Assembly: GCA_003116975.1 (NCBI GenBank)
Contig: BGKB01000101.1
Location: forward strand, 1-64,000
DNA length: 64,000 bases
Direction of reading: 5' to 3'
Source: Aurantiochytrium sp. KH105
Lineage: Eukaryota; Sar; Bigyra; Thraustochytrida; Thraustochytriidae
The notes under the pieces were generated by a model. That model made no database searches, was not told the origin of the DNA, and saw only the letters and a list, made by a program, of their open reading frames with translations. The translations under genes were made by a program, and so were the position numbers. Positions 12,483 to 23,247 of the stretch are shown piece after piece; position 1 is the stretch's first letter, and each line of letters starts with the position of its first letter.

Positions 12483-12795
12483 NNNNNNNNNNNNNNNNNN
12501 NNNNNNNNNNNNNNNNNNNNNNNNNNNNNNNNNNNNNNNNNNNNNNNNNNNNNNNNNNNNNNNNNNNNNNNNNNNNNNNNNNNNNNNNNNNNNNNNNNNN
12601 NNNNNNNNNNNNNNNNNNNNNNNNNNNNNNNNNNNNNNNNNNNNNNNNNNNNNNNNNNNNNNNNNNNNNNNNNNNNNNNNNNNNNNNNNNNNNNNNNNNN
12701 NNNNNNNNNNNNNNNNNNNNNNNNNNNNNNNNNNNNNNNNNNNNNNNNNNNNNNNNNNNNNNNNNNNNNNNNNNNNNNNNNNNNNNNNNNNNNNN
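12483..12795. other. Assembly gap (313 N)
   Basis: A run of N ending four bases before the ATG of the first WD40-Roc-COR-TIR gene, so that gene's proximal promoter or 5' UTR is missing. Confidence 0.99.
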
Positions 12796-12799
12796 CAAT

Positions 12800-15700
12800 A
12801 TGGTCCTCATTCAAGACAGTGTGTACGGCGTCGCGCAGACCGCCGACCTCGTGCTGGCTGCCAGCGGAAATCACTTGACTCGCAATGACGGCTTCTTGCG
12901 CGCGTGGAGCAAGAAGGACGGCGCCCTCGTCTTCGAGATGAAGACGCCCAACAATCAAGAGGCCAACACAGTGGCCGTGCAGGGCAACCTCGCCGCCGTG
13001 GGGACTGACGCAGGCGGCCTCTTCCTCATTGACCTGGCCACCGCCACCGTCCTGCAGACCCTCCAGGGCCACACTGGCCATATTTTGAGCGTCATTTTCG
13101 ACGGCGACAAGGTCATCTCCGGTGGCGGGGCCGCCGACAAGACCATCCGCGTCTGGGACAGGATCAGTGGCCGAGAGACCTTGAGGATTGACGCCGGGGC
13201 GAGGGTCGGGAGCCTTGCCGCCCACGAGGACCTGCTTGTGGCCGGGTTGGGCGACTATACCGTACGCATCTTCGACCGGGCCAGCGGCGGCCCACGCCAC
13301 ATCCTCACGGAGGCGACAGACTGGGTGCGAGCGGTCGCGATCGACGCGCAGCACATGGTGAGCGGGTCCGACGACAACAAGGTGAGGGTCTACGGCGTGC
13401 CTTCCTTCCAGCTCGTCCGCGTCCTTGAAGGGCACACCGACTGGGTGTACTCTGTCGCGCTCGAGGGAGACCGCATCGTGAGCGGGTCCAACGACCACAC
13501 CGTCAGAGTCTGGGACGTGCGCAACGGAGACTCGTTGCATGTCTTGCATGGACACTCGGACACGGTGTACTCGGTCTCTTTCTTGGGGTCGGAGATCGTA
13601 AGCGGATCTGACGACAAGAACGTGCGCATCTGGGACGCGGAGACGGGCGCCTCGACGCGCGTGCTGGACGGCACGGAGGCCGTGCGGCCCATCGAGGAAG
13701 TGCTCATGGCTTCTGCCGCGACTACTGCGGCGGCAAAGGAGGCGCTCAAGGCGGCGCTGGCGAATGGGGACCCCGCGGAACTGGGCCGCTGCAAGCTCAT
13801 GGTCGTCGGTCAGGGCGCCGCCGGCAAGACGTCCGTGGTGCGCTCGCTGCTGGGCATGAAGCCCGAACCAACGCACAAGTCAACGGTGGGCGTCGAGCTC
13901 ACGCGCACCGATGCAGAGTCCTGGGAAGAGATCGAGGACCTTGACAGCGGATTTGAACGCCAGGCGTGTCGCGTAGCGGCGCTGCGCATGGCCGTGCAAG
14001 AGGAGCAAACGGCGAGCGAGATGCAGCAATCATTGCCGAGGCGAGTGTCCCAGGGCTCTTCAAATCCCGTCTTCACCGCGGAGGTGCAGGTGGAATTGGT
14101 GCCTGAGGCCGAGGTGGCGCGGCGCTTCGACATTGAGGAGATTGAGGACATGGCCGGCAAGACGCAATCTGGCCAGAAGATCTTCTTTACGATCTGGGAC
14201 TATGCGGGTCAAGAGGTCTTTTACGCGCTGCACCACATTTTCCTCACGCGCGAGGGCGGCGTCTTCTTGATCGTCTTCGACATGCAAGAACTCCTCATCA
14301 AGCAAGACCAAGCCGTGGAGTACCTTTCCTTTTGGCTCAACTCGGTCAAGCTGCATGCGCCGACTGCACCCATCATTCTAGTGGGCACGCACTATGACGA
14401 GGCGTCAGTTGACATCAACGAGGTGGAGGAAATCCTTGTCGAAAATCTGTCTGTTGACGAAAACGAAAACATCGTCACGAGTCCCGCAGGGGAGCTGAGC
14501 TTTTTTCCGATCGACAACATGAGTCGCGCGCCGGGCCATGCCTCGGAATTGCGCGCTGCGGTCGAAGCAAGCGCGTCATCGCTTGAGGCCGTCTCGCGGA
14601 AGATCTCGCTGCGCTGGCTCAAGGTGTTGGACGACCTGCTGAAGCTCGACTGTGATCATGTGCCTTTCGGGACAGTGCAAGAGCTCGCGACCAAGTATCA
14701 CGCCGGTGATCAGACCGACGAGCTCTTGAGCTTCTTCCACGAGCTCGGCATGCTCGTTCATCTCCGCGCAACAAACACCTTGCACGACAAGGTCGTTCTG
14801 AAGCCTCAGTGGCTTCTGGACAACCTTTCGCGGGTTATCGCGGACAAGATCCATGTCAAGCAAATGCGATACAATCGCGAACTGCAAAATGCTGGTCTCA
14901 AAAACGATTTTACCGTGCTTCGCAAACACGGCATCGCCACGCTCAGTCTGCTGAGGTTTCTGTGGAATGACAAAGAAGTCGACTACCTGCGGGAATTTAT
15001 GCACGACAACATGCTGATGTCAGACTGGAACTTTCACGAAAAGTTGCTGCCGAGAAATCGTCGAAACGAGCCGCTTTTCTTGGTGAGCAGTCTGCTTAAG
15101 AACTCGAGGGACCGCAAACTCGAACAAGACATTGCGAAAATTCAGAGCGGGCTCACCTGCGTGTTGGACTTTTCCGAGTTCTTTCTCCCGGACGGTGTCT
15201 TTGCGCGAATGCTCTCGCTATGTGCGCAGTACAGCGGAGAAGTGAAAAAGAACAAGCGCGCACCTCAGCTTGCCGGAGATCGAGCGATTGTTCGCTTCGG
15301 CCTCTCGGTATTTGCGCTCGAGCAGGACGACAACAAAATATGGGTTCGCATGGCACAAGACGCGCACAAACCGGCAACTACACTCAAGACGCTGGTTAGC
15401 ATTTTTCGCGGGGCGCGCGATGCCGTGTTTCGGGACTTGCCGTGGGAGCTTCTGTTGCAGTCCCCGTCAGACGACTCTGTGCTGGTCAGGTATGACGACA
15501 TGGCCGACGCTCGTAGGACCGAGGTCGCTGAGGTCGCGTCAGTCGGCGTTGGCAATGCTCTGGTCACCGACTTTGAGCCCTTTTTTGAGGACGGTTCCTT
15601 GACCGAAGATGAGAACGACACGGGGACCGTGGGACAGGCGAGCATTCCGCTCGCTGCTGGGCTCAAGTACCACGTCTTTCTGAGTCATCGTCAATATGAC

Positions 15701-16288
15701 GCAGGCGATGCTTGCAATCTTATGGCGGAAAAGCTTCGCAATCGTGGACTTCATGTCTGGGTTGATCAGGAGACCGAGGGCAACCTCGCAGAGGATGCAA
15801 TGAAGCGAGGTATTCGTGAGTCCAAGTGCTATTTGCTTTTTCTTTCCAAGACGGTGTTCTCCGACGCCGTGAAAATGGAGCTGGAAGCGGCACTACGAGA
15901 GGAGAAACCGATCTTGGTCGTGCACGAGAGTGATCCAAATCGTCCGGGCTTCGCTCCTTTCTCCGCTTACATTGCCGCTGCTCCGGCATCGTCCAAGCAC
16001 CTTTTCAAAGAGAATGAGTCCATGCCTTTTCAGCGTCGCCTGTACCTTGCAGAAGCTTTTTACAAGGAGCTCATTTCGCGCATTAAGAAATCGCCGTACC
16101 GGTGGGGGGGAAGGGAATGGGATTCGCGTGTGCAGACAGACGAGTTTGCGCAACCGGGGACCATGCACAGAATGCACATGCTTCAAAAGAGATTGCGTTA
16201 CCTCGGCTTTTGGGTTGCTCTTTTTGCCACTGTCTTTGCTCGTAGCAAGCTCGATGGCCGTACCTCATCGCACATTGCCGCCGCTTGA
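12800..16288 (+). CDS. WD40-Roc-COR-TIR protein A
   Basis: A 1162-residue multidomain protein. Residues ~1-300 form WD40 repeats, about seven blades (IRVWD, VRVWDVRNG, VRIWDAETG). Roc GTPase follows: P-loop GQGAAGKTS at ~337, G3 WDYAGQE at ~466 and G4 VGTHYD at ~528, the Roco-type THxD variant. A COR-like region with WLLDNLSRVI spans ~600-850. A TIR domain starts at ~955 (YHVFLSHRQYD) and includes a Glu at 1027 (MELEAAL), aligned with the catalytic Glu of TIR NADases. A C-terminal extension of ~70 residues absent from the paralog includes a hydrophobic LGFWVALFATVFA stretch. The ATG at 12800 aligns with the starts of four paralogs, although it lies four bases after an N gap. An NLR-like sensor role is inference. 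Confidence 0.9.
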   Translation: MVLIQDSVYGVAQTADLVLAASGNHLTRNDGFLRAWSKKDGALVFEMKTPNNQEANTVAVQGNLAAVGTDAGGLFLIDLATATVLQTLQGHTGHILSVIFDGDKVISGGGAADKTIRVWDRISGRETLRIDAGARVGSLAAHEDLLVAGLGDYTVRIFDRASGGPRHILTEATDWVRAVAIDAQHMVSGSDDNKVRVYGVPSFQLVRVLEGHTDWVYSVALEGDRIVSGSNDHTVRVWDVRNGDSLHVLHGHSDTVYSVSFLGSEIVSGSDDKNVRIWDAETGASTRVLDGTEAVRPIEEVLMASAATTAAAKEALKAALANGDPAELGRCKLMVVGQGAAGKTSVVRSLLGMKPEPTHKSTVGVELTRTDAESWEEIEDLDSGFERQACRVAALRMAVQEEQTASEMQQSLPRRVSQGSSNPVFTAEVQVELVPEAEVARRFDIEEIEDMAGKTQSGQKIFFTIWDYAGQEVFYALHHIFLTREGGVFLIVFDMQELLIKQDQAVEYLSFWLNSVKLHAPTAPIILVGTHYDEASVDINEVEEILVENLSVDENENIVTSPAGELSFFPIDNMSRAPGHASELRAAVEASASSLEAVSRKISLRWLKVLDDLLKLDCDHVPFGTVQELATKYHAGDQTDELLSFFHELGMLVHLRATNTLHDKVVLKPQWLLDNLSRVIADKIHVKQMRYNRELQNAGLKNDFTVLRKHGIATLSLLRFLWNDKEVDYLREFMHDNMLMSDWNFHEKLLPRNRRNEPLFLVSSLLKNSRDRKLEQDIAKIQSGLTCVLDFSEFFLPDGVFARMLSLCAQYSGEVKKNKRAPQLAGDRAIVRFGLSVFALEQDDNKIWVRMAQDAHKPATTLKTLVSIFRGARDAVFRDLPWELLLQSPSDDSVLVRYDDMADARRTEVAEVASVGVGNALVTDFEPFFEDGSLTEDENDTGTVGQASIPLAAGLKYHVFLSHRQYDAGDACNLMAEKLRNRGLHVWVDQETEGNLAEDAMKRGIRESKCYLLFLSKTVFSDAVKMELEAALREEKPILVVHESDPNRPGFAPFSAYIAAAPASSKHLFKENESMPFQRRLYLAEAFYKELISRIKKSPYRWGGREWDSRVQTDEFAQPGTMHRMHMLQKRLRYLGFWVALFATVFARSKLDGRTSSHIAAA

Positions 16289-16888
16289 GGAGGCGGCTCT
16301 GCCCGCTGCCGATTCCAAGATGGCCGATCACCTCGAGTCCGACTCGCCCCAGGCAATTTGCGCACGTCGTTAGATTCGTATAACAAGTTGTTGCCGACTC
16401 GGAAATAAAGGGTCCAAAAGTTAATTTGTTCCTTGCCAGTCGCTTGCCAGACAGACAAATGCAGTAGGCCGATTGTGTGCACCATCCGCGCGTGCCAGCA
16501 TGTGCACACGCTCGGCCTTCGCCCGAACACCTAATCCCCCTTTCGCCCCTGCGCGCGCGCACGTCTGCGCGGCAGGCAGGCAGGCAGGCAGACCCGCAAG
16601 GCGCAAGCCAGCAACCCCCTCCCTCTCTCTTTCTCCGCGCGGGCGCCGCCGCGACACGCTCCGTCCGCGCGCGCGCCCCGCGGAGAACGCGCCAAGGCCG
16701 CATCGCATCAGCAGCCAGCCCAGCCAGGCTCTCCCCTCGAGCCCTTCATTCCTTACCCTCGCCCGAGTCTCTCTCTCTCTCTGCTATCTCGTCCCTTCTC
16801 TCGCCGCAGCTGCTCGCTCGCGCCGCTTCTTCACGTCGCCCCCCCGCCCGCACGCACGCACGCCCTCGCTCCCCTCGCCGCCGCCGCC
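16289..16888. promoter_or_regulatory. Intergenic/promoter region duplicated between the two TIR genes
   Basis: 600 bp between the tandem genes. From about 16470 to 16640 it resembles 12272-12430 upstream of gene A (shared CCGCGCGTGCCA core, then a CGCGCGCG block). The proximal part is CT-rich (16740-16800), and the ATG context is a GCC-rich stretch. Confidence 0.65.
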
Positions 16889-19800
16889 ATGGGCCGCATA
16901 GGCGCCGTAAACGGCGTCGCGCAGACCGCCGACGTCGTGCTGGCCGCCAGCGAAGACGGCTACTTGCGCGCATGGAGCAAGAAGGATGGCGCCCTCGTGT
17001 TGGAGATGAAGACGCCCGACAATAGTGCGGCCGTCTCACTGGCCGTTCAGGGCAACCTGGCCGTCGTGGGGACTAGCTGTTATCGCAAGGGCCTCTCCAG
17101 GACTGAAGTACCCGGCGGCCTCTTTCTGATTGACCTGGCCACCGCCTCCGTCCTGCACGCCCTGGAAGGCCACACCAAAAGTGTCTTAAGCGTCATCTTC
17201 GACGGCATCGAGATCATCTCGGGGTCCGACGACCAGACCGTCCGCGTCTGGGACAAGATCAGCGGCCGAGAGACCTTGAGGATCGACGCCGGGGCGGAGG
17301 TCTTCAGCGTTGCCGCCCACGAGAACCTGCTCGTGGCCGGGTTGGGCAACTGCACCGTGCGCATCTGCGATCGGGCCAGCGGCGACCCACGCCACGTCCT
17401 TAGGGAGGCGAGAGGCGCGGTCTTCGCGGTCGCGATCGACGCGCAACGCATGGTGAGCGGGTCCAAAGACCAGAAGGTGAGGGTCTACGCCGTGCCTTCG
17501 TTCAAGCTCCTCCACGTGCTCAGAGGACACACCAATTGGGTGTACTCTGTTGCACTCGAGGGAGAACGCATCGTGAGCGGGTCGAAAAACGAACCAAGAA
17601 CTAGGCCTATACCTAGACGTGTAGCTGCAACTGCGAACGGTCGTACTGGCCGTGGCTACGTTTATAATGGATACGGCGAACGCGTCGACGGCCTGATCAT
17701 GCCTACCAGTACGGTCAGAGTCTGGGACTCGCGCGACGGAATGGAGCTGCGCGTTTTGCGAGGACACGATGACACGGTGCGGTCGCTCTCTCTCTTGGGT
17801 TCGGAGATCGTGAGCGGATCTCACGACAGGAGCGTACGCATCTGGGACGCGGAGACGGGCGCCTCGACGCGCACGTTTTCAGGCACAGAGGCCGTGCGGC
17901 CCATCGAGGAAGTGCTTGGCGCGACGGAAGCTGCGACGGAAGGCCTCAAAGCTGCTCTGGCGAATGGGGACCCCGCGGAACTGGGCCGCTGCAAGCTCAT
18001 GGTCATCGGCCAGGGCGCCGCCGGCAAGACGTCCGTGGTACGCTCGCTGCTGGGCATACCGCCCGTGGTGGAGCACATCTCGACGGTGGGCGTCAAGCTC
18101 ACGCGCACCGATGCAAAGTCCTGGGATGAGATCAAGGATTCCGACAGCGGATTTGAACGCCAGGCGTATCGCGTGGCGGCGCTTCGCATTGCCGCGCAAA
18201 AGAAGCAGCCTACGAGCAATAAGCGGCCAGAGGAGCGATCTGCGAGGAAGAATCGACAATCGCTGCCCAAGCGCGTGTCCCAAGGCCTTTCAAATGTTGT
18301 CTTTGGGCGCCGACGTTCTTCTGCGGCTCAGACTTTCGTTGCAGAGGTGCAGGTGGAGCTGGTACCCGAGGCCGAGGTGGCGCAGCGGTTCGACATAGCC
18401 GAAATCGCGGATATGGCCGGCAAGACGCAGTCGGGCCAGAAGATCTACTTTACGATCTGGGACTATGCGGGTCAGGACGTCTTTTACGCGCTGCACCACA
18501 TTTTCCTCACGCGCGAGGGCGGCATCTTCATGCTCGTCTTTGACATGCAAGAACTCCTCATCAAGCAAGAGAAAGCCGTGAACTACCTTTTCTTTTGGCT
18601 CAACTCGGTCAAGCTGCATGCACCGACTGCACCCATCATTCTAGTGGGCACGCACTATGACGAGGCGTCAATTGACATCAACGAGGTGGAGGAAATCCTT
18701 GTCGAAAATCTGTCTGTTGACGAAAACGAAAACATCGTCACGAATCCCGCAGGGGAGCTGAGCTTCTTTCCCATTGACAACATGAGCCGCGAGCCAGGCC
18801 ACGCGTCAGAACTGAGAAGTGCGGTCGAAGCAAGCGCGTCGTCGCTCGAGGCAGTCTCGCGAAAGATCTCGCTGCGCTGGCTCAAGGTGTTGGACGACTT
18901 GCTGAAGCTCGACTGCGATCATGTACCTTTTGAGACAGTGCAAGAGCTCGCGACCAATTACCACGCCGGTGATCAGACCGACGAGCTCTTGAGCTTTTTC
19001 CACGAGCTCGGCGTCCTTGTCCATCTCCGCGCAACAGACATTTTACACGATAAGGTTGTCCTAAACCCGCAGTGGCTTCTGGACAAGCTTTCGCGTGTGA
19101 TTGCGGACAAGATCCATGTCAAGCAGATGCGTTACAATCGCGAACTGCGAAATGCTGGTCTCAAAAAAGACTTTGCAGCGCTGCGCAAGCGCGGCATTGC
19201 CACGCTCAGTCTACTGAGGTTTCTGTGGAATGACGAAGAAGTCGACTATCTGCGGGGGTTTATGCACGAGACAATGCTGATGTCAGACTGGGCGTTTCCA
19301 GAAGAAGCGCTGACAAGCGGTCGCGAAGATGAGACGTTCTTCTTGGTGAGCAGTCTGCTCAAGAACGTGACGGACCGCGAACTCGAACAAGACATTCACA
19401 GCGTTCGGCAAGGATTAACATGTATACTGGACTTTTCCCAGCTCTACCTTCCCGACGGCGTCTTTGCGCGTCTACTTTCGCTTTGTTCCAAGCACAGTGG
19501 CGACGTGACCACGAAATGGGGTGCCCCACGCCTCGCCGGACACCAGGCCATTATTCGTTTTGGTTTGTCGGAGTTCGCGTTGGAAGAACGAAACAATCAG
19601 ATTAGGCTCATCATGGTTCCTGGAACAAGAGACCCGGCCAGCACGCTCAAGACGCTCATCAGCATGTTTCGCGGCGCTCGTGACGCCGTTTTTAAGGATT
19701 TACCCTGGCAACTGCACCTGCAGTCACCACGCAACTCTTCCATTCGGGTCGAGTACGGTTACTTGGTCGATGCTCGCAGGGCCGAGGTCGCTGAGGTCGC

Positions 19801-20362
19801 GTCAGTCGGCGTTGGCAATGCTCTGGTCACCGACTTTGAGCCCTTTTTTGAGGACGGTTCATTGATCGAAGATGAAAAGGACACGGGCGCCGTAGGACAG
19901 GCGAATATTCCGCTCGCTGCTGGGCTCAAGTACCACGTCTTTTTGAGTCATCGTCAATATGACGCAGGCGATGCTTGCAATCTCATGGCCGAAAAGCTTC
20001 GCAATCGTGGCCTTCGTGTCTGGATCGACCAGGAGACCGAGGGCAACCTTGCAGAGGATGCAATGAAGCGAGGGATCCGCGAATCCAAATTCTACTTGCT
20101 CTTTCTTTCCAAGACTGTGTTCGAGGGCACCGTGGTTATGGAGCTGGAAGCGGCACTACAAGAGGAGAAACCGATCTTGGTCGTGCACGAGAGTGATCCA
20201 AATCGTCCGGGCTTCGCTCCTTTCTCCGCTTACATTGCCGCTGCTCCGGCATCGGCCAAGCATCTTTTCAAAGAGAAAGAGTCCATGCCTTTTCAGCGTC
20301 GCCTATACCTTGCAGAAGCTTTTTACAAGGAGCTCATTGAGCGCATCAGCGCCACCAGATGA
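16889..20362 (+). CDS. WD40-Roc-COR-TIR protein B
   Basis: An 1157-residue tandem paralog of the upstream gene with the same domain order. WD40 repeats occupy ~1-345, Roc ~360-610 (P-loop GQGAAGKTS at ~374, WDYAGQD at ~524, VGTHYD at ~586), then COR, and TIR from ~1013 with the conserved Glu at 1085 (MELEAAL). It differs from A in three ways. A 39-residue insertion sits inside one WD blade (about 17588-17708). A longer basic loop lies in Roc (KRPEERSARKNRQS region). The protein stops right after the TIR (ERISATR), without A's hydrophobic extension. Identity with A is patchy, with near-identical tracts next to diverged ones. The start ATG follows a GCC repeat and matches the MGRIG start of WD40-only paralogs. 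Confidence 0.92.
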   Translation: MGRIGAVNGVAQTADVVLAASEDGYLRAWSKKDGALVLEMKTPDNSAAVSLAVQGNLAVVGTSCYRKGLSRTEVPGGLFLIDLATASVLHALEGHTKSVLSVIFDGIEIISGSDDQTVRVWDKISGRETLRIDAGAEVFSVAAHENLLVAGLGNCTVRICDRASGDPRHVLREARGAVFAVAIDAQRMVSGSKDQKVRVYAVPSFKLLHVLRGHTNWVYSVALEGERIVSGSKNEPRTRPIPRRVAATANGRTGRGYVYNGYGERVDGLIMPTSTVRVWDSRDGMELRVLRGHDDTVRSLSLLGSEIVSGSHDRSVRIWDAETGASTRTFSGTEAVRPIEEVLGATEAATEGLKAALANGDPAELGRCKLMVIGQGAAGKTSVVRSLLGIPPVVEHISTVGVKLTRTDAKSWDEIKDSDSGFERQAYRVAALRIAAQKKQPTSNKRPEERSARKNRQSLPKRVSQGLSNVVFGRRRSSAAQTFVAEVQVELVPEAEVAQRFDIAEIADMAGKTQSGQKIYFTIWDYAGQDVFYALHHIFLTREGGIFMLVFDMQELLIKQEKAVNYLFFWLNSVKLHAPTAPIILVGTHYDEASIDINEVEEILVENLSVDENENIVTNPAGELSFFPIDNMSREPGHASELRSAVEASASSLEAVSRKISLRWLKVLDDLLKLDCDHVPFETVQELATNYHAGDQTDELLSFFHELGVLVHLRATDILHDKVVLNPQWLLDKLSRVIADKIHVKQMRYNRELRNAGLKKDFAALRKRGIATLSLLRFLWNDEEVDYLRGFMHETMLMSDWAFPEEALTSGREDETFFLVSSLLKNVTDRELEQDIHSVRQGLTCILDFSQLYLPDGVFARLLSLCSKHSGDVTTKWGAPRLAGHQAIIRFGLSEFALEERNNQIRLIMVPGTRDPASTLKTLISMFRGARDAVFKDLPWQLHLQSPRNSSIRVEYGYLVDARRAEVAEVASVGVGNALVTDFEPFFEDGSLIEDEKDTGAVGQANIPLAAGLKYHVFLSHRQYDAGDACNLMAEKLRNRGLRVWIDQETEGNLAEDAMKRGIRESKFYLLFLSKTVFEGTVVMELEAALQEEKPILVVHESDPNRPGFAPFSAYIAAAPASAKHLFKEKESMPFQRRLYLAEAFYKELIERISATR

Positions 20363-21291: not shown

Positions 21292-22932
21292 CTACACAGA
21301 CATTTCCATCTTGATGGTCTTGTGTGGCTTGTAGCCCACGAGCTCAAGATCCTCGTACTTGAAGCCATCAATGTCAGTGTTGTCAGTGTTGATCTTGAGC
21401 GTGGGAAAGGGGCGGGGGTCACGCAACAACTGCTCTTTGAGCGGCTCGACGTGATTTTTGTAAATGTGACAGTCGCCAATCACGTGAATGAATTCGCCCG
21501 CGCGCAAGCCCGTGCACTTTGCAAGGAGGTGCGTGAGCAAGGCGTAGGAGGCAATGTTGAACGGCACGCCAAGACCAATGTCACCAGAACGCTGGTACAT
21601 TTGGCACGAAAGCTCGCCCTTGGAAACGTAGAACTGAGCAAACATGTGGCAGGGCGGAAGCGCCATAAGGTGAAAGGCAGCCGGGTTCCACGCCGAAAGG
21701 ATCATACGACGATCGTTGGGGTTGGTTTTGATCGTGTGCACAAGCTGCGCAAGCTGGTCGACACCCTTACCCGAGTAGTCATCGTGCATCGTGGTGTAGT
21801 CCGCGCCAAAGTGCCGCCACTGAAAACCATAGACGGGGCCGAGGTCACCTTCCTCTCGGTCTGTGAGGCCGATCTTGTCGAGATATTCACGAGACCCGTT
21901 GCCATCCCAAATGTGAATGTTCTTTTCTTGCAGTGTCTTGGCGCTCGTGTCGCCTGACATGAACCAAAGAAGCTCCTCGGCGACGCCGCGCCAAAAGACG
22001 CGCTTCGTCGTGAGAAGCGGGATGGTGTCGTTGCGAAGGCTGAAGCGCATCGTTGTGCCAAAGGTGGACAAGGTGCCAGTGCCAGTGCGATCGCCGCGGT
22101 CATCACCGTGCTCAAGAACATAGCGCACCATGTCCAAGTATTGAAGTTCCTCGTGACACGAGGAGCGTTTGGTGACAGGGTGTGCGATGGGCGGGCGCGC
22201 GTTCTCCGTAAAAGGTGCCTCGGTTTCGGCTTCGGGAGAATCGGTAGTGGCAGCCGCCGGTTCTGGGCTTGTCGAGCGACGACGATCGGAGGCCTCGGCG
22301 GCAGGGTCCACATCTGCCTCGCTCGTCTTGCGTACAAAGTGCAGAAACTCGTACTGGACGCCATCTTCTTCCTGCCGACCCTCGGGAGCGAGATCCGGAT
22401 GTCCAGCGCATCGAAAGACCGCCTCGTCAATTTCAGGAAAGAACGTGTCGCACTTGAAGTCACCGTAGACACGCGTGAGAAATACGGAATCGCAAGCTTC
22501 GTGCGCAAGTGCCTCAGCGTACACGCTGGCGCCACCAATGACGATGGCGCGCTCGACATCAGGGCGCGCGCTGAGCTCCTTGAGTGCGGCATCAAGACTG
22601 GCGAAAATATCGACCTCCTTGGGAATGTCGAGCTCCTTCCGCACAGCCTCGGCGCCTGACTTGTCGGCGGCCCGAGTCGAAAGCACGACGTTAACGCGTC
22701 CTTCGAGCGGACGCATCTTGGCGGGAATGCTTGTCCACGTTTTTCTGCCCATAATGACGGCGTTCTTCTTGCCCTCTTCGCGCGCCGTGCTCGTCAACAG
22801 CTTAAAGACGCGCAGCTCGTTGCGCAGGCGCCAGGGGAGTCTGCCTTCGATCCCAATGCCGCTGCCGCTCTCTGCCACGGCTACCGCCAGGCTCACCGGC
22901 AGGCATGCCGCCTTGCCGACGTTCCCGCTCAT
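21292..22932 (-). CDS. DHFR-TS: Bifunctional dihydrofolate reductase-thymidylate synthase
   Basis: A 546-residue fusion enzyme for dTMP synthesis and folate recycling. The frame is open from a GTG at 22962, but the first ATG (22932) gives [15 protein letters not shown]. Residues ~10-190 are DHFR ([10 protein letters not shown] substrate loop, [19 protein letters not shown] motif). Residues ~190-260 are a low-complexity linker (Ala/Glu/Ser-rich). Residues ~265-546 are thymidylate synthase: [10 protein letters not shown] phosphate loop, PPCHM with catalytic Cys at ~428, and [20 protein letters not shown]. Order and length fit the fusion found in plants, alveolates, kinetoplastids and stramenopiles, which supports the host assignment. 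It is a single intronless frame. Confidence 0.97.
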
Positions 22933-23247
22933 GCTGTCACGCGCTTCCGCTCTCTCCCGCACCGCACCGCGTCGCGCGCCTGTCGTCGCGAGTCCACCTT
23001 CGTTCGCCGACTCGTGCTTGATGTTGGTTTGCTACCCGCTGTCGGTTTTGGTCACCTAACGACCATCCTAACCACCATGACCAGCCTTTTCCCTCAAAAA
23101 ACAAAAGGGGGGACGCAAGACAACTTTTGGTGGGCCATTGTAGCAAAGGCAAGAAGATTACGCAAAAGAGTTGCTGGTTGATGCACATGATGTTGACCGC
23201 CAACGTAACGTAAATCACCAGAGCAGAACCAAGGGCAATTTGTTTGT
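22933..23247. promoter_or_regulatory. DHFR-TS upstream region
   Basis: 315 bp between the DHFR-TS start and the 3' end of the next minus-strand gene; it should contain the DHFR-TS promoter. No specific motif is recognised. Confidence 0.4.

Follow-up and report, generated by a model that had tools for sequence, protein, structure and literature searches.

In fungal WD40 propellers, strong positive selection is reported for four codons that form two pairs; a residue under purifying selection stands between the members of each pair, and the pairs map to the d-a loop and b-c turn, at the top of the propeller (PMC1805685). The fungal HET effector domain is possibly related to TIR (PMC4986451). The Roc-COR module of CtRoco forms dimers, and Roco proteins have been suggested to work by a monomer-dimer mechanism (PMC6337361). 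Here we analyse a stretch of 64,000 nucleotides from Aurantiochytrium sp. KH105 (contig BGKB01000101.1 of assembly GCA_003116975.1, positions 1 to 64,000 of the forward strand; hereafter the window), in which two adjacent genes each encode a WD40 propeller, a Roc GTPase, a COR region and a TIR domain in one chain, together with the family of related genes in the same assembly.

From the architecture of these proteins, and from hypervariability at the recognition positions of the propeller, we consider it probable that they form an intracellular family of non-self receptors working like NLRs, in which the propeller would bind, Roc-COR would switch and a putative TIR output would follow. Of the titles and abstract openings listed by our searches, which were confined to the open-access literature, none mentions a WD40-Roc-COR-TIR family or a labyrinthulomycete TIR or NLR repertoire.

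Two adjacent genes and a dispersed family

The two genes, copy 1 and copy 2, have the following features in the window.

12800..16288, + strand: copy 1 WD40-Roc-COR-TIR gene, a single open frame of 1162 amino acids (ATG at 12800, stop at 16286-16288)
12800..13672, + strand: copy 1 WD40 propeller (Pfam, AlphaFold2 and variability)
13781..14524, + strand: copy 1 Roc GTPase (Pfam and motifs; limits approximate), with P-loop at 13808-13834, WDYAGQ at 14195-14212 and GTHYD at 14384-14398
14597..15499, + strand: copy 1 COR region (limits approximate), with COR-A, the sole COR part detected by Pfam, at about 14612-14884
15662..16090, + strand: copy 1 TIR domain and C-terminal helix (Pfam, fold and sequence matches)
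15878..15880, + strand: codon of the copy 1 Glu (E1027) that pairs with the helix C Glu of AbTIR and is invariant in alignments A2 and A3
16889..20362, + strand: copy 2 WD40-Roc-COR-TIR gene, a single open frame of 1157 amino acids (ATG at 16889, stop at 20360-20362)
16889..17890, + strand: copy 2 propeller (Pfam and alignment)
18008..18661, + strand: copy 2 Roc, P-loop to GTHYD (Pfam and motifs)
19928..20359, + strand: copy 2 TIR domain and C-terminal helix (Pfam), with MELEAAL at 20138-20158
12483..12795, no strand: run of N, immediately upstream of copy 1

All four domain families are over their Pfam cut-offs in copy 1 and copy 2, respectively: WD40 with 98.3 and 85.6 bits (cut-off 27), Roc (PF08477) with 76.0 and 66.3 bits (cut-off 27), COR-A with 44.6 and 47.7 bits (cut-off 35.3), and TIR_2 (PF13676) with 50.4 and 47.6 bits (cut-off 28). 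An earlier account made from the letters alone (the sequence-only reading) had described two adjacent genes with WD40, Roc, COR-like and TIR parts in one chain, and the single open frames bear this out. The motifs that it named are likewise present in both copies, starting at 13808 and 18008 (GQGAAGKTS), 14195 and 18458 (WDYAGQ), 14384 and 18647 (GTHYD), and 15875 and 20138 (MELEAAL). The copies are 79% identical. Copy 1 ends in a tail of about 65 codons (window 16094-16285) with no counterpart in the aligned relatives, which stop earlier, and the sixth blade of copy 2 carries an in-frame insertion of about 39 amino acids (about 17590-17707) of no obvious origin.

The term tandem, used in the same account, applies to one haplotype: the window has two genes at the locus, whereas the other haplotype (contig C92) has a single gene, between flanks that are about 90-97% identical. 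C92 has sequence across the region of the N run, and there the reading frame stays open 5' of the same ATG. We note a second closely spaced pair of family members, C106:106588 and C106:113367, which share a strand and have their starts separated by about 7 kb.

The assembly comprises 76.0 Mb in 367 contigs and seems to hold both haplotypes, because many unrelated GTPase matches occur as pairs of equal score, each on its own contig. A search of the assembly with the Roc-COR-TIR part of copy 1 gave 63 matches, merged to at least 60 loci (three being split), copy 1 included; this family size is a lower bound, the best 60 of 230 candidates having been scored, and counts both haplotypes. The other loci, dispersed over many contigs, have 62-83% protein identity to copy 1 Roc-COR-TIR. 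An uninterrupted stop-to-stop frame of at least 1100 amino acids is present at 47 of the 60 loci, and in 37 members examined the P-loop is intact in 36, WDYAGQ in 37 and GTHYD in 35. The members at C6:82858 and C58:132433, both damaged (see below), each have an allele whose match extends across the TIR, and may represent genes being lost from the repertoire.

Hypervariable positions of the propeller

By our count, the copy 1 propeller has seven blades. The propeller analyses comprise 44 of the 58 members fetched, the 14 omitted having an incomplete propeller or a start not located by the script. The alignment consists of a near-invariant scaffold with variable residues at matching places in each blade, the pattern being x V x S V where strand a begins and S G S x D x T V R in the b-c turn. 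About 30 residues per propeller are hypervariable, mainly those flanking the conserved V and the conserved D of each blade.

Following the rule described for fungi (PMC1805685), we defined 26 rule positions as the residues flanking the blade V and D, with a single pair, around an A, in blade 2. These positions were used for entropy and for the replacement and synonymous rates, whereas variable positions chosen from the data were used for residue composition, codon usage, the comparison of alleles and paralogues, the adenine tests and the ratio of nonsynonymous to synonymous rates (dN/dS) of the domains; the comparison with scaffold distance used both sets. Mean entropy is 2.83 bits at the 26 rule positions and 0.48 bits at the other 264 (44 propellers; Mann-Whitney p = 8e-17). 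Rule positions account for 20 of the 26 most variable propeller positions, and the other six (23, 65, 66, 105, 208 and 248) adjoin or sit near rule sites. At the variable sites, the residues N, Y, R, G, D, S, K and W are abundant. Judged by the rule positions, 40 of the 44 propellers have distinct residue sets.

In the AlphaFold2 model of the propeller, 10-residue means of the predicted local distance difference test (pLDDT) are mostly 80-95, with one block at 61, and the variable positions, placed by secondary structure, lie in the d-a loop or the start of strand a and in the b-c turn. The best Foldseek matches of the model are WD40 propellers, a designed eight-bladed one at the top and Fbw7, beta-TrCP and G-beta among the natural matches near it. 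Blades 3-7 inside one gene share a mean of 30% and a maximum of 62% amino acid identity (44 genes), whereas the equivalent blade compared across genes has a mean identity of 78%, and exchange therefore keeps the blade register.

Replacement and synonymous change

In 28 pairs differing by <3%, the rate of replacement at the 26 rule sites exceeds the synonymous rate of the remaining propeller codons by a factor of 36 (24.7-45.4 in 12 bootstraps over genes); in 209 pairs at 3-6% the factor is 22.8. Inside the rule sites, the ratio of replacement to synonymous change is 5.7 (<3%) and 11.8 (3-6%), values that are unstable in the bootstrap. Six same-locus pairs with equal or nearly equal variable residues were set aside from the rate estimates, and the differing same-locus pairs stayed in. 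Hypermutation without selection is disfavoured by the replacement excess, the within-site ratio being read with the instability just stated. The Roc, COR and TIR parts are under purifying selection, with mean dN/dS of 0.33, 0.22 and 0.13, respectively (all pairs of 27 members).

Given the same residue, the probability of a different codon is 0.107 in the scaffold and 0.080 at codons sandwiched between variable ones, where codon usage expects 0.48. The scaffold codons are therefore identical by descent, and codon bias is ruled out as the cause of their low synonymous variation. Micro gene conversion that homogenises the scaffold alone is also ruled out, because the sandwiched codons are as uniform as the rest; in 23 close pairs, nucleotide difference is 0.022 at sandwiched codons, slightly above the 0.012 of the scaffold, and 0.452 at variable codons. 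Shuffling of a limited stock of blade cassettes is ruled out by the 28-39 distinct sets per blade in 44 genes; the sharing of blade sets is enriched 1.49-fold at <5 amino acids, against 1.16-1.26-fold beyond.

Diversity-generating retroelements (DGRs) rewrite the contact codons of an invariant scaffold in an adenine-specific manner. Adenine-targeted mutation of this kind is unsupported in the family, as scaffold sites with a majority A are not consistently more variable than the others. Grouped by majority base, scaffold variability is 0.119 (A), 0.091 (C), 0.070 (G) and 0.110 (T) at codon position 1; 0.068 (A), 0.076 (C), 0.077 (G) and 0.039 (T) at position 2; and 0.277 (A, n=13), 0.115 (C), 0.107 (G) and 0.204 (T, n=6) at position 3.

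Alleles, paralogues and exchange between loci

Alleles were identified from matching downstream flanks. In four allelic pairs, L034/L035, L041/L042, L054/L056 and L048/L064, none of the 30-32 variable residues differs (0, 1, 1 and 1 nucleotides, respectively), and the scaffolds differ by 15-23 nucleotides, or 2-3%; for L034/L035 the matching flank is short (about 215 nucleotides, 88%) and the pairing of the contigs further supports allelism. Two of 31 variable residues differ in L003/L028, and four of 32 in L001/L030. The differences are many in the same-locus pairs L022/L025 (23/32), L007/L013 (24/31), L002/L030 (24/31), L047/L049 (26/31) and L008/L011 (27/31). The 11 same-locus pairs are bimodal, with 0-4 or 23-27 differing variable residues and none between. 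Some of the strongly differing members may be decaying, given the internal stop in the gene of L049 and the lack of the usual ATG in L011 and in L022. L004/L005 (23/31) and L006/L012 (21/31), whose flanks are shared in part, were excluded from the same-locus count; in L009/L019, L010/L014, L016/L020 and L024/L029 the flanks match, and one or both propellers are incomplete in the set.

Between loci, the variable residues differ even where the scaffold is nearly the same. At 0.66% scaffold difference, L008/L053 differ at 23 of 31 variable codons and L009/L024 at 27 of 31, with about 1.8-1.9 nucleotides changed per altered variable codon. Once the 11 same-locus pairs are removed, the minimum variable-site difference among the remaining 935 pairs is 0.50; the mean is 0.80-0.81 in the five pairs below 1% scaffold difference and 0.85-0.86 at scaffold differences of at least 12%. 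This comparison, made with both position sets, agrees with one in which six same-locus pairs had been set aside. The comparisons of alleles and loci together mean that some alleles keep their variable residues, whereas from one locus to another these residues are almost completely different, no matter how similar the scaffolds are. We propose that a specificity, once made, is kept by purifying selection.

This distribution bears on two further explanations. Errors of assembly or sequencing, for which one could point to the run of N that adjoins copy 1 and to the broken members, would ignore the codon positions of a protein surface and would not leave four allelic pairs in agreement at all variable residues, and we find such an artefact scarcely credible. 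A housekeeping or developmental Roco-type signalling family, its propeller varying under relaxed constraint, is very improbable. Many known Roco proteins are not immune receptors (PMC6337361 and PMC11378527); relaxation, however, would affect surface and synonymous sites alike, whereas the variability here is confined to fixed codons with near-invariant neighbours, and the four allelic pairs are unchanged at the variable residues over 2-3% scaffold divergence.

Six different-locus pairs were profiled along the gene. Four of them, L009/L024, L008/L045, L006/L024 and L008/L024, have 82-100% identity per 100 nucleotides from upstream of the ATG (about -200; about -100 in L006/L024) to about +1080, and 46-94%, mostly <85%, past that point. 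In these four pairs, the exchanged unit is the 5' part with the propeller and the P-loop. The boundary of exchange is not fixed, because similarity extends to about +2400 in L008/L009 and to about +2100 in L006/L027. L009 and L013 share a contig, on which they lie about 300 kb apart. Their identity is 95-100% over everything from +1200 onwards and drops to 33-69% in the flanks, and yet 17 of 31 variable residues differ.

These patterns would also suit a targeted diversification, in which a mutagenic process rewrites the contact codons in the same event that copies the sensor part between loci. Variable-site divergence barely rises with scaffold divergence, the same-locus pairs are bimodal, L009/L013 differ at more than half of their variable residues next to near identity downstream, and synonymous change at the rule sites is raised to 6.3 (<3%) and 1.9 (3-6%) times that of the rest. 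We nevertheless think this process unlikely, because the variable sites match the contact positions selected in fungi, a match that selection explains and a blind mutator does not. Furthermore, no adenine-type (DGR-like) signature is seen at scaffold sites, replacement exceeds synonymous change within the sites (at ratios unstable in the bootstrap), variable-site difference depends weakly on scaffold distance (rank correlation 0.42), and no template or enzyme has been identified, the sole search bearing on either being one WD40 DNA search. In its full form, this would be a programmed diversification: copies of the sensor part would pass among dozens of loci, with about 30 contact codons rewritten during copying and a germline repertoire as the result. 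We hold this form to be distinctly unlikely; if true, a unicellular eukaryote would possess contact surfaces like those of antibodies, set on a fixed propeller.

As for silent WD40 cassettes, 40 of 95 candidates from the WD40 DNA search were scored, and the one followed, L067, which has no Roc match, is a different type of gene and no proven donor. L067 (324-1763; C26:115000-119600) is a stand-alone propeller of the family type without Roc-COR-TIR, and ends in ...CPTCSIL, which resembles a CaaX prenylation box; the sensor is here joined to another, perhaps membrane-anchored, C-terminus.

Roc-COR module and TIR domain

The best PDB matches of the Roc-COR sequence are 4wnr (titled as a leucine-rich-repeat protein), which we take to be MbRoco, LRRK2, and 3dpu/6hlu, presumably CtRoco. 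Between propeller and TIR, neither NACHT nor NB-ARC is among the five families found per copy at E<=1, so the protein does not belong to the NLRs, although its apparent way of working resembles theirs; by its sequence it is classed as a Roco-type protein with a TIR. In the putative Roc-COR switch module, Roc and COR-A are over their cut-offs, and COR-B is not detected.

The C-terminal domain had been called a TIR from the letters, and it is one: besides the Pfam score, the best fold match in the PDB of its model (pLDDT 80.5; predicted template modelling score 0.80) is SARM1 (7anw, E 8.1e-7). Its best sequence match is AbTIR, and matches to a profile built from 18 TIRs include AbTIR, Cat1, plant TIRs and SARM1. 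A Glu of MELEAAL had also been assigned to the catalytic place. The first Glu (E1027 in copy 1), placed by alignment in a helix of the model, aligns with the AbTIR Glu that we assume to be catalytic, whereas the second is variable; the assignment holds for the first. At the E1027 position, all 33 rows of A2 have Glu, and these rows include two Roc-COR-TIR relatives that lack a propeller. Glu is likewise invariant in 18 of 18 TIRs of A3, among which are a TIR-NACHT gene and genes of other layouts from this genome, and it was located by motif in all 36 family TIRs examined. On the best reading of sequence and model, this is a TIR of the SARM1/AbTIR type with a putative NADase output.

Other TIR genes and neighbours

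The TIR repertoire of the assembly is unusually large, with at least 150 TIR_2 matches, all over the cut-off (150 scored of 258 candidates), many of them in frames of 870-930 and 1200-2000 amino acids. L036, L037 and L040 are further Roc-COR-TIR genes in which Pfam detects no propeller; the start of the L040 frame resembles leucine-rich repeats (LRRs) by eye, without a Pfam match. In L038 (2-2323, - strand), the TIR is followed by NPHP3_N (over the cut-off), with NACHT matched weakly, an arrangement closer to that of conventional TIR-STAND proteins. L039 (597-2513, + strand) is a frame of 639 amino acids with a C-terminal TIR as its sole Pfam match, and the region before the TIR resembles armadillo-type helices by eye, a SARM1-like layout. 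A scan of contigs for prokaryotic relatives with two short patterns, which could miss distant ones, gave 52 pattern matches, none of them confirmed.

Downstream of copy 2, the window frame 21292-23031 (- strand) matches thymidylate synthase over the cut-off, and its first half matches dihydrofolate reductase below the cut-offs; it is likely a fused dihydrofolate reductase-thymidylate synthase. Elsewhere in the assembly, this stretch is matched once, on C92.

Proposed mechanism

The sequence-only reading had assigned sensing, switching and output to propeller, Roc-COR and TIR of one chain. The architecture agrees with this, and the sensor is the part most strongly supported, through diversity at recognition positions. 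The variable face of the propeller (about 30 residues on seven blades) would bind fast-changing or polymorphic ligands, such as parasite proteins or, as in fungal allorecognition, partner alleles; the distribution of the variation supports this link strongly. From homology, we infer the later steps. Binding would be relayed through Roc-COR, as the monomer-dimer state follows the nucleotide in other Roco proteins, and a GTP-dependent change in Roc-COR may cluster the C-terminal TIR domains. Clustered TIRs would then cleave NAD+ or produce a signalling nucleotide, and the NAD+-derived signal, or depletion, would kill or alert a cell that is infected or incompatible. Diversity would arise as gene parts that include the propeller move between loci and diversifying selection acts fast on the contact codons.

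Whether the role is defence against parasites or allorecognition, that is, mating or fusion compatibility, bears on the ligand. The closest functional parallel, HET-D/HET-E, performs allorecognition, and allelic replacement together with the difference in copy number between haplotypes fits frequency-dependent selection. Dozens of dispersed loci per diploid genome seem, in our judgement, beyond the needs of compatibility, and we regard allorecognition in place of defence as possible but not favoured.

Several observations weigh against a receptor family of this kind. The fungal rule was applied to define the 26 positions after the alignment had been inspected. The synonymous rate at the rule sites is itself unstable in the bootstrap, and its elevation over the rest means that part of the replacement excess could be mutational; the rates, estimated from 44 of 58 fetched members, come from a composite likelihood that ignores genealogy and recombination. 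COR-B is not detected by Pfam at E<=1 in copy 1 or copy 2, and in a relative it reaches 17.9 bits, below the cut-off of 27. The AlphaFold2 model of Roc-COR is poor, with most 10-residue blocks at pLDDT <60. Some members are damaged: L049 (C6:82858-84951) carries the internal stop, the match of L064 (C58:132433-133905) ends before the TIR, the P-loop of L026 is broken, and L011 and L022 have no ATG at the usual place.

If the receptor reading is right, the family is an NLR-like repertoire assembled independently, with fungal-type variable positions joined to a Roc-COR switch and a TIR output, in a unicellular and, on the sequence-only reading, free-living eukaryote. The sharp split between scaffold and contact sites, and the stable alleles beside changed paralogues, make receptor diversity without somatic recombination directly testable, and the family would be a natural library of binders on one scaffold.

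Comparison with known systems

SARM1 and the bacterial AbTIR, both NADases, share the TIR fold with the family, and the AbTIR Glu is aligned, a likeness known here from sequence and model. To our knowledge, neither has Roc-COR or a hypervariable propeller. LRRK2, CtRoco and MbRoco give the best PDB sequence matches of the Roc-COR part; CtRoco and MbRoco, as far as we know, have LRR partners and no TIR. LRRK2 differs in its LRR and kinase partners and, according to PMC6337361, in having no TIR. The DGRs resemble the family in combining an invariant scaffold with rewritten contact codons; unlike them, the family does not display the adenine bias, and no search was aimed specifically at a reverse transcriptase or template.

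An earlier paper on Ectocarpus LRR-ROCO genes is reportedly that of Zambounis in 2012. The LRR-ROCO genes of brown algae, candidate immune receptors, resemble the family described here in that they encode Roco GTPases, have expanded and dispersed, and have a repeat sensor that diversifies; they differ in the LRR sensor, in exon shuffling and alternative splicing, and in their simple LRR-ROCO architecture (PMC11378527). The TPR-ROCO-TIR protein of Chondrus crispus has the Roc-COR-TIR core behind a repeat domain, which is tetratricopeptide (TPR) rather than WD40, and the accessible part of the same source reports neither expansion nor hypervariability for it (PMC11378527).

The fungal HNWD family, with HET-D and HET-E of Podospora, is alike in its WD40 sensor, which diversifies at paired positions of the d-a loop and the b-c turn, in its central nucleotide switch, and in being a gene family that exchanges sequence (PMC1805685, PMC12222747). 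It has NACHT in the place of Roc-COR, and the order HET-NACHT-WD40 instead of WD40-Roc-COR-TIR. The fungal repeats within one gene are about 85% identical (PMC4986451), in contrast to the 30% mean of the blades here. At this mean, and with a maximum of 62%, the reshuffling of internal repeats known from fungi is inapplicable, and exchange in the WD40-Roc-COR-TIR family takes place between loci, with the order of the blades kept.

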